Assembly (NCBI GenBank): GCA_019358835.1
Contig: JAHHIH010000022.1
Span: forward strand, 1-64,000
Source of the DNA: Tildeniella torsiva UHER 1998/13D
GTDB taxonomy: Bacteria; Cyanobacteriota; Cyanobacteriia; Phormidesmidales; Phormidesmidaceae
Direction of reading: 5' to 3'
DNA length: 64,000 nt
Made by a program: the position numbers and the translations under genes. Below are positions 4,058-11,266 of the stretch, piece by piece. The notes beneath the pieces were generated by a model. That model searched no databases. It was not told the origin of the DNA and worked only from the letters and a program-made list of their open reading frames with translations. Every line of letters begins with the position of its first letter. The first letter of the stretch is position 1.

Positions 4058-5263
4058 ATGGGCTATCCCTCTGTGCCGTCGCTAACCGCTACCTGGCTGC
4101 ACTCCATTGATGAGGTTCCCGAGGCCGTGTGGGATGAACTGGCCCAGCCCCTAGCGACACCGTTTCTGGAGTGGAGCTGGCTGCACAACATGGAGCGATC
4201 GGGCAGCGTGGGGGCCAATGCGGGCTGGCTACCCTGCCACCTGGCTATATGGCAGGGCACCACCCTTGTGGGGGCCGCCCCCATGTACCTGAAGGGCCAC
4301 AGTCGAGGCGAGTTTGTCTTTGACCACCAGTGGGCCGATCTGGCTGAGCGGCTGGGGGTGGAATACTATCCCAAGCTGCTGGGCATGTCGCCGTTTACCC
4401 CGGCAGAGGGCTATCGGTTTCTGATTGCCCCCGACGCCGATGAAGCGATTATTACTCGGGCCATGGTGGAGGTGATTGATGGGTTTTGCGATCGCAACAA
4501 TATCTCCGGCTGCCACTTTCTCTACGTCGACCCCCAGTGGCGGTCCACCATGACCCAGCTGGGCTACTCAGAGTGGCTGCACCACAGCTACGTGTGGCAA
4601 AACCAAGGGTTCAAAGACTTTGACGACTACCTGGGCATGTTCAACGCCAACCAGCGGCGCAACATCAAGCGCGAGCGCAAGTCGATGGCGACGGCGGGCC
4701 TGCGCCTGGAGGCGATCGCTGGGGACGCCATCAGCAACTCCCTGTGCGACCAGATGTACGACTTTTACGCCGATACCTGCGACAAGTTTGGCTGGTGGGG
4801 CAGCAAATACCTGAGCCGCAAGTTCTTTCACCTGCTGCACCACGACTACCGCCACCGCATGGTGTTTTTTGCCGCCTACGGCGAAGACGACAGCGACCCG
4901 GTGGGCATGTCGTTTTGCCTGACCAAGGGCGATCGCCTCTACGGTCGCTACTGGGGCTCGGCGATGGAGATGGACAATCTGCACTTTAACGCCTGCTACT
5001 ACGCGCCGATCGAATGGGCGATCGCTAACGGCATTACCCTGTTTGACCCCGGAGCCGGGGGCCGCCACAAAAAACGGCGGGGCTTTCCGGCCCTGGGCAA
5101 CTACAGCCTGCACCGGTTCTATGCCCCGCGCATGAAAACGCTGCTGACCCGCTACATCAACGAGGTCAACGAGCTAGAGCAGCAGGAAATCGACGCCATC
5201 AACGCCGAACTGCCGCTCAAGCTGCTGCCGGGAGACAAGCCCTGCCCTGAAGCGCATAGCTAA
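4058..5263 (+). CDS. FemAB-like peptidoglycan acyltransferase (GNAT superfamily)
   Basis: The 401-residue protein matches the FemAB-like family (Pfam PF04339 type), annotated as GNAT acyltransferases or peptidoglycan biosynthesis/recognition proteins. Recognisable pieces are FLEWSWLHNMERSGS near residue 35, the basic NANQRRNIKRERKSM helix near 200, DKFGWWGSKYLSRKFF near 240 and the C-terminal GITLFDPGAGGRHKKRRGF. Related Fem enzymes add amino acids to cell-wall precursors using aminoacyl-tRNA; the donor and acceptor here are unknown. There is no signal peptide or membrane helix. A cyclase gene follows 78 bases downstream. Confidence 0.8.
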   Translation: MGYPSVPSLTATWLHSIDEVPEAVWDELAQPLATPFLEWSWLHNMERSGSVGANAGWLPCHLAIWQGTTLVGAAPMYLKGHSRGEFVFDHQWADLAERLGVEYYPKLLGMSPFTPAEGYRFLIAPDADEAIITRAMVEVIDGFCDRNNISGCHFLYVDPQWRSTMTQLGYSEWLHHSYVWQNQGFKDFDDYLGMFNANQRRNIKRERKSMATAGLRLEAIAGDAISNSLCDQMYDFYADTCDKFGWWGSKYLSRKFFHLLHHDYRHRMVFFAAYGEDDSDPVGMSFCLTKGDRLYGRYWGSAMEMDNLHFNACYYAPIEWAIANGITLFDPGAGGRHKKRRGFPALGNYSLHRFYAPRMKTLLTRYINEVNELEQQEIDAINAELPLKLLPGDKPCPEAHS

Positions 5264-5341
5264 ACCGATGGGGCCATAGCCACCGATTGGGCACCCTAGG
5301 GCAGAACAGACATTGAGTCGGATCAGCAATGGATAGGGGCA

Positions 5342-6889
5342 GTGGCAGAACTGGAGAGCATTGAGCGTAGCCTGCGAGACTTGGTGCCCGCCGACTTGTA
5401 CGCCGCCCTATGGGTTGATCCCTCGCCCAAGACTATGGTCAAGGTGTTTGACCACTTGCGCACCCTACAGCACATTTTGATCGACTACGTGCCACGAGAC
5501 GTGGCCCAGCAGCCACCCTTCAGCCCTCAGATCCGCCACCGCTGGCACCGGGGCACGCTGCTATTTACCGATTTAGCAGGGTTTACGCCGCTGTTTGCGG
5601 CCAACGCAGCCTCAGGCCGCGCCGGGGCCGAAACCCTGCTGGCGCTGATCAACGCCTACTTTGCTCAGATGGTAGAGCTGGTTAGCAAGGCCGGTGGCAA
5701 TCTGCTGGAGTTTACCGGCGATGCGATGCTGGTACAGTTTCGCCACGAGGCCTACCAGTCTGAGGGGGACCACGCCGAGATTATGCAGGCAATCTACGCA
5801 GGGCTGCGCATGCAGCGGGCCATGGAAAACTTTGCCGCCATCGAAACTGCCCAGGGTTGCCTGTCGCTGCGCATGCGGCTGGGCATTCATCCGGGCCAGT
5901 TTGTGGCCGCCGATATTGGCACTCCCCTGCGCCGCGCCCACGTGCTGCTGGGCCAGCCGGTGCTGGTGGCTAAGCGCACCGAGGGGGCCGGGGTGGTGGG
6001 CCGAGTATGTCTAAGCCAGGCCGGGCGCGATCGCCTTCAGCCCACAGCCCACCCCCTGCACCTCGAACCCAACGGAGATAGCTGGCTGGTGGTCGATGAC
6101 CTGAGCGCCGAGGCGCTGGGCGAGTACGACCTCACCCTGAGCCGCCGCCGCCCGGCTAGTTCCGTGCTATTTGACCGCAGCGTGCCGGGCCTGCTGAGTG
6201 AAATTCAAACCAGCCTCGCCACCCTTGAACCCCTGGCCAGCTACCTACCCCGACCGGTGCTTCAGCTGCTGGTGAACACCGCTGCCGCCCGCCGCATTCC
6301 CCCGGCATTTCCGACGGCGGCGGTGGCCTTTGTCAACTTGATTGGCCTGCCAGAGGCGGTGGATGCCGCCTACCCCGACGATACCGACGGCATTGTCGCC
6401 TGTTTTTCCCAGGCCTTTGCCCTGATCAACGGGGCGGTAGAGCGCCGTCGCGGCATTTTGCAGAAGGTCACTTATCACTCGGTGGGCTCAGAGCTACTGA
6501 TCCATTTTGGCGTGCTTGCCCCCGACCCCGAGGCTCCCCTGCGGGCTGTTGAGGCTCTGGTAGCCATTCGCACTCTGATTAACCAGCTGCGATCGCCCCT
6601 CAGCCAGGGCCAGCCCCTGGCCATCACCTGTCGCATGGGGTTGACCTACGGCCCGGTGTTTGCCGCCGAAATTGGCGAGCCCAGGGGCCGACGCGAGTTT
6701 AACGTGCTGGGCGACACGGTCAACACCGCCGCTCGGCTGATGGGTCGAGCCAGCCCCAACCAAATTCTGCTGGATGCCGCCACCCGGCAGGCTCTCGGCC
6801 CCAACCCCGACTACCGCTGTAATTTTTTTGGGGAACTCTGTCTCAAGGGGAAGGCTGCACCCCAGCCGATCTACAGCCTCGAAGCGTGA
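5342..6889 (+). CDS. Tandem class III adenylate/guanylate cyclase-domain protein
   Basis: The 515-residue soluble protein contains two class III cyclase homology domains. Domain 1 (about 70-225) keeps both metal-binding aspartates, in LLFTDLAGFT (D77) and FTGDAML (D127), but the transition-state Asn is replaced by Leu (L208), with R212 retained. Domain 2 (about 325-490) has lost both metal aspartates (N332 in AVAFVNLIG, S383 in VGSELL) but keeps the Asn-Arg pair in NTAAR (N461, R465). The split resembles the C1/C2 arrangement of animal adenylyl cyclases, suggesting one intramolecular active site. The start is a GTG. No sensor domain is visible, and the first 60 residues are not recognised. 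Confidence 0.85.
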   Translation: MAELESIERSLRDLVPADLYAALWVDPSPKTMVKVFDHLRTLQHILIDYVPRDVAQQPPFSPQIRHRWHRGTLLFTDLAGFTPLFAANAASGRAGAETLLALINAYFAQMVELVSKAGGNLLEFTGDAMLVQFRHEAYQSEGDHAEIMQAIYAGLRMQRAMENFAAIETAQGCLSLRMRLGIHPGQFVAADIGTPLRRAHVLLGQPVLVAKRTEGAGVVGRVCLSQAGRDRLQPTAHPLHLEPNGDSWLVVDDLSAEALGEYDLTLSRRRPASSVLFDRSVPGLLSEIQTSLATLEPLASYLPRPVLQLLVNTAAARRIPPAFPTAAVAFVNLIGLPEAVDAAYPDDTDGIVACFSQAFALINGAVERRRGILQKVTYHSVGSELLIHFGVLAPDPEAPLRAVEALVAIRTLINQLRSPLSQGQPLAITCRMGLTYGPVFAAEIGEPRGRREFNVLGDTVNTAARLMGRASPNQILLDAATRQALGPNPDYRCNFFGELCLKGKAAPQPIYSLEA

Positions 6890-6987
6890 TCTCACCCTTG
6901 AAGAGTTGAGCCGGCGGTTGCGCACGCTACCATAGAGAGTCGTAACCTTAGTCCTGTCAGGCTGCGATCGCTGTCGCCTAACCCGCA

Positions 6988-7395
6988 ATGACTCTACCCT
7001 CTAGCACCCAACCGATCGATCGAGCCCAGCGCTTGGCCCTCGATGACCAGCTCTCGAAACGCTACATTGAGCTAGACCCGGCGGGCTATTTCCTCATTTA
7101 TTTAGACGTGGAGCAGGGGCTAATTTGCGCCAAGCACTTTGCCAACATCATTAACGACAAAGGGCTGGCCTGCGACCCGACTACGGGCAAACCCTTACCC
7201 GTGCGTGGCCCCATAGAGCGCGTGCCCACCTGCACCTACAGCGGTCGCACCGCCAAAGAACTCTCGATCGCCATTTTTGAAGACCCGGCTCACCCCTGCC
7301 CTATCACCCACCTCGACCATGCGGCCTATTTGGGGCGCGAGTTTGTGCGAGCCGAAGCCGCTCTCAATGCTGGCGAACCCTACATTCAAGACTGA
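6988..7395 (+). CDS. DUF4346 domain protein
   Basis: The 135-residue protein matches DUF4346, a family widespread in cyanobacteria. Features are the IELDPAGYFLIYLD strand pair near residues 28-41, LACDPTTGKPLP, SGRTAKELSIAIFED and the C-terminal LDHAAYLGREFVRAEAAL. DUF4346 is related in sequence to the A subunit of tetrahydromethanopterin S-methyltransferase of methanogens, but there is no methanogenic pathway here and the function is unknown. It is cytosolic, with no membrane segment. It is the last gene of the opening plus-strand series and converges on a minus-strand gene. Confidence 0.82.
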   Translation: MTLPSSTQPIDRAQRLALDDQLSKRYIELDPAGYFLIYLDVEQGLICAKHFANIINDKGLACDPTTGKPLPVRGPIERVPTCTYSGRTAKELSIAIFEDPAHPCPITHLDHAAYLGREFVRAEAALNAGEPYIQD

Positions 7396-8187: not shown

Positions 8188-8589
8188 TTAAGGGACTAAG
8201 GGGCTAACTAAAATGCCGATAAAGGCGATCGCCCCCAGCCCTGTCAGAATATAGGCCACGACTAAAGCTGGAGACCGCCGCGATCGATAGACCAGATCGT
8301 TACGCTGAATGCGCTGGAGCTGATGGTTGTGGTCGAGGGCCGCGCCCATCAGCGCAAAGGTGCCCAGCGCCACGAAGGACAGCCCCAGAATGCGGGTCAG
8401 CCGCAGAGGCCTCACCGGATCTCCCAAGTTCTGGTGAATGGCCGCCACAATGCGCTCAATGCCAAAGCCAAAGCCAATCAGCGCAAGGGCGGTGCGAATC
8501 CAGGCCATCAGGGTGCGCTCTTCGGCGGCGCGATTACGCTCTTTGGCCAACTCTATCGCCGCCGAAGAGTCTGAGTTAGATGCAGTCAT
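8188..8589 (-). CDS. DUF202 family membrane protein (YidH-like)
   Basis: The 133-residue protein opens with the DUF202 signature ELAKERNRAAEERTLMAWIRT, which precedes three membrane helices (about 30-50, 70-95 and 108-130). DUF202 proteins are small inner-membrane proteins of unknown function, of which E. coli YidH is one. The lengths of the helices and loops are normal. It is divergent from a second DUF202 gene at 8968, and the whole space between them is occupied by a repeat element. Confidence 0.88.
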   Translation of the reverse strand: MTASNSDSSAAIELAKERNRAAEERTLMAWIRTALALIGFGFGIERIVAAIHQNLGDPVRPLRLTRILGLSFVALGTFALMGAALDHNHQLQRIQRNDLVYRSRRSPALVVAYILTGLGAIAFIGILVSPLVP

Positions 8590-8672
8590 GGCAGGGGCAA
8601 ATACACAGACGGCTCAGCGAAACTATCGTACTCTCAGATCAGCCAATACTTACACCCGAATGGGGATGTCTA

Positions 8673-8935
8673 GCTATAGCCAGTCTCAGTAGATCACAAA
8701 GTCCCCGCAGCCCTCTCCCCCAGCCCCTCTCCCAGGGAGGAGAGGGGAGACGGAACCAGGCTTCAAATCCCTCTCCCAGCTTGGGAGAGGGATTTAGGGA
8801 GAGGGCTGGATTATGGGAAAAAAGTGTGTTTGTAAGCTAACCGAGTCTGGTCAAGACGTTTCTCCCCTAAGCGTGGGAACGTTCCCACGTGGGAACGTTT
8901 TCTGGATGTCCTAACCAATTGACTGTGGCTATAGC
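8673..8935. repeat. MITE-like element, family 2, copy A
   Basis: The element runs from GCTATAGCCAGTCT (8673-8686) to its near-complement GACTGTGGCTATAGC (8921-8935). A second copy is at 16435-16527, and the 19 bases at 8898-8916 are identical to 16489-16507. The interior differs from copy B: it holds a long CCCTCTCCC/GGGAGAGGG foldback (about 8711-8813) and the perfect palindrome GTGGGAACGTTCCCAC (8873-8888). There is no coding capacity. It fills the gap between two divergent DUF202 genes. Confidence 0.7.
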
Positions 8936-8967
8936 AAGGCTGTGGTTCCTCCTCAATGCTCAGGCCT

Positions 8968-9369
8968 ATGAGTGATGCCTCCTCACCCACCGGGGTGAAC
9001 ACGACCAACGAACTCGCCCGAGAGCGCAACCGGGCCGCTGCCGAACGCACCCTCAACGCCTGGACTGGAATTTGCCTAAGCCTGATCGGGTTCGGGGTGG
9101 CTTTTGAGCAGATCACACGCAGCCTACAGCGCCAGGCGGCACCAACAGCCCATAGGGTCGTCCCAAACCCAGCGCTGGTGGGGCTGGGTTTTGTGGGCAT
9201 GGGGCTATTGCTGCTGGGGTTGGCGCTGGTTCAGCACCGGCTGACCCTAGCCGCCCTTGAGCAGCAAGACTATGTGCTGCGGTCAGTTAAGACGTTGAAC
9301 CGCTGGGCAGTGGTCACCATTGTGCTGGCGGGGCTAGCGGGGTTGGGCGTAACATTGCTCTTGCCCTAG
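8968..9369 (+). CDS. DUF202 family membrane protein
   Basis: This 133-residue DUF202 protein has the ELARERNRAAAERTLNAWTGI signature followed by three membrane helices (about 34-55, 75-100 and 112-132). I use the ATG at 8968, because the one at 8956 only adds four residues not seen in the neighbours. It is the second of three DUF202 genes within 1.6 kb and converges on the third with only 8 bases between the stop codons. Function unknown. The three differ enough that the duplication does not look recent. Confidence 0.85.
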   Translation: MSDASSPTGVNTTNELARERNRAAAERTLNAWTGICLSLIGFGVAFEQITRSLQRQAAPTAHRVVPNPALVGLGFVGMGLLLLGLALVQHRLTLAALEQQDYVLRSVKTLNRWAVVTIVLAGLAGLGVTLLLP

Positions 9370-9377
9370 ACAATCTC

Positions 9378-9764
9378 TTACCTCAGCAGATCGAACCCTA
9401 GCCAGCCGAAGGCGATCGCACCAGTGGCAAGGACCGCGAGCCCAATCGCTTTCCCTACCGACCGGCGGGGTCGGTATCGGTACTGAGGCGATCGCAGCTG
9501 CATGCTCTCGGCCAGGTAATCGGCGATCGCCAGCCCCAGACTCAGCACCCCCAGACCGACATACACCAAACTGAGGCCGTAGGCCCAACCATCGATATAG
9601 CGATCGCTGGGGGAGAGCGCCCTGAGAATTTGCTCAAGCCCCACACCAATGCTAATCAGCGTCAGGCTAATGCGCACAAAGGATAGCAGCGAGCGAGCGG
9701 CGGCGAGGCGATTGCGATCGCGCGCCAGATCGTCCGAGGTATGGGGCGGATAAAGGCTCGACAT
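9378..9764 (-). CDS. DUF202 family membrane protein
   Basis: The third DUF202 protein of the cluster is 128 residues if started at the ATG at 9764. An upstream start at 9815 would add 17 residues and overlap the LCP gene's stop codon. The DDLARDRNRLAAARSLLSFVRI signature precedes three membrane helices. It lies 50 bases downstream of the LCP gene on the same strand, so the two are probably co-transcribed, which hints at an envelope role. No function is established for the family. Confidence 0.82.
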   Translation of the reverse strand: MSSLYPPHTSDDLARDRNRLAAARSLLSFVRISLTLISIGVGLEQILRALSPSDRYIDGWAYGLSLVYVGLGVLSLGLAIADYLAESMQLRSPQYRYRPRRSVGKAIGLAVLATGAIAFGWLGFDLLR

Positions 9765-9814
9765 AGGGCTAAGCCGGGGCGCTAGAACTGTAGTCAAGCA
9801 ATACCTAGCCCACA

Positions 9815-11266
9815 CTAGGGTTGGGCCTCTGAGGACTGGGTAACCTGCTCAACCCAGTCTTGCCCGACCCGAATCGTAATGTCGGAATTGAGGTCGCCCG
9901 TGGACTCAGACAGGGCCAGCCCTACCCCCAGCAGCGACTCGACCATGCGGGCACTGTCAATATCACCTTGCTGGGCCACCACCTCGGTGCGGGCCATGGT
10001 GGTTGACAGGTCATCGATAACGTAGACATTTTTAAAGCCGTTCTCGCCCAGGTAGCGGGCTACCGAGGCCGCCTGCTCGGGCTGGCCAGAGGCATTTTGC
10101 ACCGCAATCGACAAATCGGCCACGTAGCTGGCCTGGGAATTGTCGGCGTAGATGCTCACCCCCTCCGCCTGGAAGAAGCTTTGCATAACGGTGGCCGAGT
10201 CTTCCCAGTTGGGCAGCCAGTAGCTGGCATTAAACTCGGCTGGAGTGCTAAAGCGACCGGGCAGCATCACCATTTGCAGCTGGTTAGACTCAATTTCGAG
10301 GCCGAAGTTAGCGATCGCCAGCATTTCCTCCAGGGTGAGGTTGGTGTCAACATAGCGCTGTAGCACCCGCAGCGCCTGGGGCAGCTTGGGAATCACGGTG
10401 GGGTTGGTCAAGCGCTCCCGCAGCGCCTTCAGCAGCATTTGCTGGCGCTGCACCCGGCCAATGTCGCCGCTGTCTTTGCGGTAGCGAGCAAACTGCTCGG
10501 CCTGGTCGCCGTTGAGGGTCTGCCAGCCGGGGTACAGGTCGATGTAGAGGCCCTGGGTGCGATCGGTGTACTCCATGCGGGTGGGTACGTTAACCTCAAT
10601 GCCCCCCACCAGGTCAACCATTTCCCGAAAGGCGCTGGTGTTGATGCGCACGTAACGATCAATTTGAATATTGCCCAGGTTGTAGGCCACGGTTTGAGCC
10701 ACCAGTTCCGGGCCACCCAACACGTTGGCCTGATTAATTTTGTCCATGCCAAAGCCCGGAATCTGCACGCGAGTGTCGCGGGGAATAGACATGACGTTGA
10801 GGGTGCCAGATTCCGCATCAACCCGCACCAGCAGCAGCGTATCGGTTCGCCCCGCAAAGGTGGCTTCGGAGTTGGGCTGGGCATTGGGTACCTCGTCAAT
10901 GCCCATCACCAAAATATTGACGGGCCGCGTCACCTGATAGCGAAAGCCCGCCTGCCACAGGTCGCCAAAGCTAGCGGCGCGGTTGGCATCGCCCCCCATA
11001 AAGTCGGGCAGGGGAACGGTGAGGGCGATCGCGGCCCCCACCAAGGCCGAAGCCGCTGCCGTACCCACAAATAGACTGCCCCACAGCAGCGAGTTAACCA
11101 CGCGCCGAACCGGCCCTGGTGACGCCCCCGGTGACGCAGACGCAGACGTAGGCGGCAGTTCCACAACAGCAGCAGGCTCCGGGGAGTGCTGATCTGAGGC
11201 GACAGCCTGATCAGAGTCGGTGGAGTGGCCTTCTTTGGGCTCGTCGTTCGGCAAAGGGGTTGTCAT
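9815..11266 (-). CDS. LytR-CpsA-Psr (LCP) family glycopolymer transferase
   Basis: The 483-residue protein has a disordered Pro/Ser-rich cytoplasmic N-terminus, one membrane anchor (about 58-84) and an external LCP domain (about 115-270). The domain includes NILVMGIDEVP, FAGRTDTLLLVRVD, MSIPRDTRVQIPG, KINQANVLGGP and RYRKDSGDIGRVQRQ, with the conserved Asp and Arg residues that hold the lipid pyrophosphate. A LytR_C domain follows (about 380-475). LCP proteins transfer glycopolymers from undecaprenyl-pyrophosphate carriers to the cell wall. It is divergent from manC, which makes a sugar-nucleotide precursor, consistent with surface polysaccharide assembly. Confidence 0.92.
   Translation of the reverse strand: MTTPLPNDEPKEGHSTDSDQAVASDQHSPEPAAVVELPPTSASASPGASPGPVRRVVNSLLWGSLFVGTAAASALVGAAIALTVPLPDFMGGDANRAASFGDLWQAGFRYQVTRPVNILVMGIDEVPNAQPNSEATFAGRTDTLLLVRVDAESGTLNVMSIPRDTRVQIPGFGMDKINQANVLGGPELVAQTVAYNLGNIQIDRYVRINTSAFREMVDLVGGIEVNVPTRMEYTDRTQGLYIDLYPGWQTLNGDQAEQFARYRKDSGDIGRVQRQQMLLKALRERLTNPTVIPKLPQALRVLQRYVDTNLTLEEMLAIANFGLEIESNQLQMVMLPGRFSTPAEFNASYWLPNWEDSATVMQSFFQAEGVSIYADNSQASYVADLSIAVQNASGQPEQAASVARYLGENGFKNVYVIDDLSTTMARTEVVAQQGDIDSARMVESLLGVGLALSESTGDLNSDITIRVGQDWVEQVTQSSEAQP

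Follow-up and report, generated by a model that had tools for sequence, protein, structure and literature searches.

The window analyzed here, the whole 64,000-nucleotide stretch taken from a Tildeniella torsiva contig, carries on its forward strand a single uninterrupted reading frame that runs from a GTG at position 5342 to a TGA ending at 6889 and encodes a protein of 515 amino acids. The Pfam family Guanylate_cyc matches the product in two stretches (E = 5.5e-26), and the PF00211 score of 91.7 bits, against a cut-off of 21.9, identifies class III cyclase homology domains. No second Pfam family was detected in the 515-residue protein at 0.01, and the AAA ATPase/TPR tail is absent. Upstream of the GTG start lies the sequence GGATAGGG, which is likewise found at two other family loci (L015 and L016), and the N-terminal part of the protein contains a motif, HLRTLQ..L..Y.P, kept in most rows of the family alignment. 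Aligned to human soluble adenylyl cyclase (sAC/ADCY10), the gene divides as follows.

5342..6889, + strand: entire coding region for the tandem class III cyclase (515 aa), from its GTG to its TGA codon (reading frame, Pfam)
5342..5536, + strand: N-terminal helical part, residues 1-65 (alignments; helices in the model)
5537..6061, + strand: domain 1, C1-like, residues ~66-240 (Pfam, alignment to human sAC), with the metal Asp residues D77 and D127, E123 (= human K95), R179 (= K144) and K211 (= R176)
6062..6298, + strand: linker, residues ~241-319, with low model confidence at 262-273
6299..6886, + strand: domain 2, C2-like, residues ~320-515 (alignment to human sAC), with N332 (in FVNL) and S383 at metal positions a and b, respectively, a longer loop, and K375 (= human K334), N454 (= T405), N461 (= N412) and R465 (= R416)

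Reading frame, Pfam matches and alignment together confirm the original prediction of two class III cyclase domains with complementary catalytic residues, and the residue numbers it quoted (D77, D127, L208, N332, S383, N461 and R465) all agree with the sequence and the alignments. The pattern was followed in a family alignment of 36 rows with a mean column identity of 62% and in a smaller alignment of the window copy with five close relatives; the 36 rows are related to one another, and counts taken from them are not independent. Left out of the 36 were a frameshifted copy (L020), four entries from the same places as kept rows (L021, L051, L052 and L053), three likely copies of L015, L016 and L018 as judged by coordinates or by length and identity (L022, L023 and L031), and the partial copies L045-L047, L049 and L050. 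D77, D127, N332, N454 and N461 are present in every row, as are E123, R179, K211 and H379, and S383 is present in 35, the remaining row having Ala. The position of L208, where domain 1 would otherwise carry its transition-state Asn, is variable (L 13, Q 10, T 10, R 3) and is Asn in 0/36 rows; the window copy keeps an Arg, R212, at the domain 1 transition-state Arg position, in a column that is Arg in only 4/36 rows and otherwise Q 27, K 4 and N 1. The expectation that the losses are always paired thus holds for domain 1 in 36/36 rows, but in domain 2 R465 is retained in 33 rows (missing in 3/36) and K375 in 32 (missing in 4/36), the two occurring together in 32/36. Near-invariant residues set against the 62% mean column identity, together with a dN/dS of 0.07-0.20 for the window copy versus 10 relatives (simple Nei-Gojobori count), indicate that the complementary residue pattern is, judged from sequence, not a product of chance.

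In class III cyclases, Lys is the adenylate-type residue of base recognition, and guanylate cyclases have Glu at one base position and Cys at the other. The base lysine of domain 2, which the original prediction did not mention, is K375, aligned with human K334. It stands 8 residues before S383, compared with 4 residues between E123 and D127 in domain 1; S383 aligns with the second metal position, and human sAC C2 shows an equal extra length (loop 338-341). K334 is given as recognizing the ATP base in human sAC in an excerpt of PMC12867704 (Table 1), and T405 as contacting adenine in an excerpt of PMC12250328. The T405 position is occupied by N454 in all 36 rows, which is unusual for a base reader in place of Thr or Asp, and K144, the pyrophosphate residue of human sAC, is likewise replaced throughout by R179. 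The Glu/Cys base pair of guanylate cyclases is not found at the active-site positions, which hold K375 and N454. We consider it quite unlikely that the protein is a cyclase of another base, that is, a guanylate or pyrimidine cyclase. Such a reading would account for the invariant N454, for a Glu in domain 1 as in guanylate cyclases, and for matches to eight PADLOC Pycsar PycC models (best 1e-15), although matches of this kind would be expected of any class III domain; against it, E123 belongs to the dead site in domain 1, the active site has the adenylate-type K375 at this position in 32/36 rows, and no Pycsar effector was found, 0/6 neighboring proteins matching PADLOC models at 0.01. A guanylate cyclase assignment on account of E123 was rejected because of that residue's location at the dead site, and a Pycsar defense cyclase, PycC, because no effector was found among the same six neighbors. 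ATP is the inferred substrate since K375 is kept as in sAC, although Asn replaces T405.

The placement of the two domains was examined in an AlphaFold2 model computed on the 36-row alignment (pLDDT 86.9, pTM 0.88), in which segments of at least three residues fall below a pLDDT of 50 only at 137-140 and 262-273. A Foldseek search of the PDB with this model returned human sAC at ranks 1-24 without exception (TM by query 0.69-0.72), and VIA-align gave Z scores of 37.0-39.1 to sAC entries; the superposition on 4clk (Z 39.1) extends over 423 residues at 2.8 Å and covers model residues 36-515. Structure prediction, one of the checks proposed for the original prediction, accordingly placed both domains as in sAC C1/C2 by whole-chain superposition. 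By homology through the same superposition, D77 and D127 would lie in one cleft with K375, N454, N461 and R465, and on alignment to human sAC, D77, D127, K375, N461 and R465 can likewise all serve a single composite site. A predictor that has learned from cyclase structures may force their known arrangement on the model. The fold alone cannot separate sAC from the transmembrane cyclases, since AC9 (6r3q) is tied at Z 38.0.

In a single-sequence search, human sAC came first in a near tie (5.1e-14, with Cya2 at 6.1e-14 and CyaB at 1.5e-13), its match to domain 2 alone was weak (0.016), and AC9 reached 1e-8 versus 5e-14 for sAC. With a profile of the 36 rows, human sAC again came first at 4.6e-29, followed by CyaB at 8.4e-24, and the human match formed one stretch (profile 60-503, chain 31-462) spanning both domains. 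The protein has both hallmarks of a sAC-type C2 domain, an extended loop behind the base Lys and the FVNL motif, whose Asn occupies metal position a; the motif is FVNL in human C2 and FVNL or FINL in the family rows printed. The nearest relative appears to be human sAC, clearly so with the family profile. The features of sAC/ADCY10 proper are absent, the family having neither the Thr405 base reader, nor the K95/R176 pair, nor the AAA/TPR tail.

Comparators came from searching more widely with the profile of the family; this found long proteins matching both halves, in genomes that belong to the phylum but not to the window's class. Fourteen regions were fetched for their long frames, several because both halves matched, so that the two-domain state was selected for. 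Nine of the 14 encode tandem proteins (L089-L096 and L099), from five genomes and four of them from one genome; two regions (L098 and L101) have one cyclase domain, and the longest frame in the other three (L097, L100 and L102) had no cyclase match. Alignment with other tandem bacterial cyclases, another check proposed at the outset, found the complementary loss in 9/9 of these long proteins: domain 1 has both Asp residues and lacks the Asn, and domain 2 has lost the metal residues while keeping Lys, Asn and Arg. A domain tree was built with 54 entries, two each from 11 of the 36 family rows, the nine bacterial tandem proteins and human sAC, plus 12 other cyclase domains of the window genome. 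All 21 domain 1 rows fall on one side of a branch with support 99/95, all 21 domain 2 rows form a separate group with support 98/99.5, and both groups are separate from the genome's remaining 12 domains, in an unrooted tree whose human branches are very long (2.0 and 1.88), one with odd composition.

The long tandem proteins therefore group with the family domain by domain, and the complementary-loss design is common to the human enzyme and the long bacterial tandem proteins, so that the paired loss is in itself nothing new. The original prediction had described a parallel to animal C1/C2 adenylyl cyclases within a single short soluble bacterial polypeptide. Its composite site in one short soluble chain is supported by the model superposed on human sAC C1/C2, but the likeness as a bacterial parallel is probably not independent, the tree and the FVNL motif pointing to a sAC-type lineage. 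Tandem duplications of cyclase domains arose more than once, and this recurrence, with the choice of the nine comparators partly for two matches and from only five genomes, leaves some room for an independent bacterial C1/C2 pseudo-heterodimer, made like the transmembrane cyclases by local domain duplication. We regard this as very improbable: domain 1 groups with sAC domain 1 and domain 2 with sAC domain 2, never domain 1 with domain 2; neither groups with the genome's 12 other cyclase domains; and FVNL and the longer loop are common to the family and human sAC. From the grouping in the tree and the FVNL motif in human C2, the paired loss most simply predates the split of the family from sAC and would then have been inherited.

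Taken together, the alignments and the model are consistent with a catalytic core of sAC (ADCY10) type that stands alone and has one working composite site, a reading to which we assign a probability of roughly 0.68. The two domains of one chain would pack to form a single working site. Domain 1 would contribute D77 and D127, to bind two metal ions at the triphosphate, and domain 2 would contribute K375 and N454 for base recognition and N461 and R465 for stabilizing the transition state; R179 would hold the pyrophosphate, and the second, mirror site would be dead. On residues and model, the enzyme is most likely active as an adenylate cyclase forming cAMP. Candidate signal receivers exist in the window genome, as it has 18 matches to cNMP-binding domains; such domains occur in each of the 11 genomes searched, including two without the cyclase gene. 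In one genome (G116), two cNMP-binding frames (L112:354-2951), one of 366 aa with two domains and one of 184 aa, lie within about 6 kb of the divergent cyclase.

The part of the site that departs most from human sAC is the bicarbonate switch, where K95 and R176 are replaced by E123 and K211 in 36/36 rows. An excerpt of PMC12250328 states that R176 of human sAC sequesters D99 for as long as no bicarbonate is bound. Excerpts of PMC12867704 report that the human enzyme becomes both less active and less sensitive to bicarbonate when K95 or R176 is replaced by a neutral residue, that non-mammalian sACs, bar a few, have K95, R176 or both changed, and that the two such enzymes tested, from sea urchin and salmon and without R176 or K95, are active and respond to pH instead; the residues listed there for these two positions across animals are K, R, N, M, V, S, Q and T, with no Glu among them. 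Because the two positive bicarbonate-binding residues are replaced by an acid/base pair, bicarbonate is predicted not to switch the cyclase on, and a human-type bicarbonate site appears unlikely when position 95 is acidic and position 176 is Lys. E123 and K211 may hold each other and so leave D127 free. Three points stand against bicarbonate blindness: domain 2 retains the longer loop length, as HSVG rather than FDKG; excerpts of PMC11006738 attribute the bicarbonate site to a small insertion in C2; and they report bicarbonate-activated bacterial relatives, from Chloroflexus. A more specific version, which we hold as doubtful though worth stating, is that the anion switch has been rewired, the E123/K211 pair taking the switch Arg's role off the metal Asp, so that a cyclase with a Lys and Asn base reader would be always on or otherwise gated, by pH or ATP level. 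If bicarbonate blindness is true, some cyanobacteria, which are concentrators of inorganic carbon, carry a bicarbonate-blind sAC relative, a small soluble bacterial sAC core that has no regulatory tail and whose bicarbonate-binding pair is in a charge-swapped state. With its charge-swapped pair, the family offers a direct way to test which residues govern the response of sAC to bicarbonate or pH.

The same substitution could mean a poor enzyme, as neutral changes at K95 or R176 lower human sAC activity (PMC12867704, excerpt), and it bears on whether the protein is instead a nucleotide-binding pseudo-cyclase, whose composite site would bind ATP or another nucleotide with little or no turnover and which would serve as a sensor or partner. 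A two-domain protein of P. aeruginosa (6yii) matches the model over both domains (Z 29.0, 377 residues, 12% identity), the T405 position is Asn throughout the family, and the gaps at K375 and R465 fall in particular rows: L048, L061 and L062 (~40% identical) have neither residue, and L059 lacks K375 alone. These four may be inactive or altered. We nonetheless judge a pseudo-cyclase rather unlikely for the window copy, which with 31 further rows (32/36) keeps both metal Asp residues, Lys, Asn and Arg; the dN/dS against 10 relatives is low, and the sea urchin and salmon enzymes without R176 or K95 are still active (PMC12867704, excerpt). The divergent subclade L048, L061 and L062 keeps the domain 1 metal Asp residues, and its members are candidate pseudo-enzymes.

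The putative sAC-type core is patchily distributed. At an E value of at most 1e-20 the family is present in 27/63 genomes of the order and in 12/26 of the window's genus, and in a phylum sample 12/386 genomes drawn match at 1e-60 (7/143 genera, four families); the six named relatives are Nodosilinea, a Leptolyngbya metagenome-assembled genome (MAG) and other filamentous cyanobacteria. A Nodosilinea MAG copy, WJT8-NPBG4 (L020:5001-6531), is frameshifted within domain 1, by decay or assembly error. The window genome has 12 other cyclase matches at 0.001, no two of them side by side. The FemAB-DUF4346 locus is a clean presence/absence site for the cyclase: in two genus mates (G045 and G032; loci L119 and L120) FemAB, 94-95% identical to the window's, leads directly to DUF4346 with no cyclase and ~140 bp between the alignment ends, where the window has 5263-6988. 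FemAB likewise adjoins DUF4346, and the cyclase is absent, in four members of the genus that are more distant (G027, G028, G035 and G038). A search of the flanks of 14 cyclase loci outside the genus with 14 window neighbors found none of them there, and an operon function read from the neighbors was rejected for that reason. The gene looks like an accessory signaling gene with no fixed operon. Plasmid carriage was also rejected, no match being found in the plasmid collection at 1e-10. At five of the 14 loci outside the genus (L103, L104, L105, L106 and L114), a gene of the HisI/HisE type (phosphoribosyl-AMP cyclohydrolase/phosphoribosyl-ATP pyrophosphohydrolase; Pfam run on three of the five) lies downstream on the same strand. 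Elsewhere in the window, at 8188-9815, three small DUF202-like genes stand in a row on alternating strands, the first assigned by Pfam and the others by eye.

Among known systems, CyaC of S. platensis (1wc1) and Cya2 (2w01) have class III domains in common with the family; they are single-domain homodimers with the full residue set in each chain. The mammalian transmembrane adenylyl cyclases have membrane spans and are under G protein control. They resemble the family as C1/C2 pseudo-heterodimers, with a fold match for AC5 (8sl4, Z 32.9) as well as for AC9, but AC9 is a poorer sequence match than sAC. P. aeruginosa 6yii has the same two-domain class III fold at 12% identity and is by its title a class III cyclase-like ATP-binding protein; nothing fitting on it appeared among the matches listed in the open-access literature, and no title among those matches described the short stand-alone cyanobacterial family. 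The nine long bacterial tandem proteins differ from the family in their open frames of 1,310-1,494 aa and in retaining T405, K95 and the DEKG loop (9/9 each). They have Arg at R176 in 0/9, and at metal position a five carry N, two L and two K; AAA_16 was above cut-off behind the cyclase part in 2/2 scanned, and TPR in 1/2. Human sAC (4clf, 4clk) has the same C1-C2 order in one soluble chain, with D47/D99 matching D77/D127, K334 matching K375 and N412/R416 matching N461/R465, and it has FVNL in C2, the longer loop after K334 and the same fold across both domains. It differs at ~21% identity in having T405 for N454, K95/R176 for E123/K211 and FDKG for HSVG, and in its AAA/TPR tail, which by length is absent from 36/36 family rows. 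What is new, at the level of sequence, is the stand-alone form, the E123/K211 pair and N454. The mammalian truncated isoform sACt, which comprises C1 and C2 according to an excerpt of PMC12867704, is similar in extent to the stand-alone cyanobacterial family.
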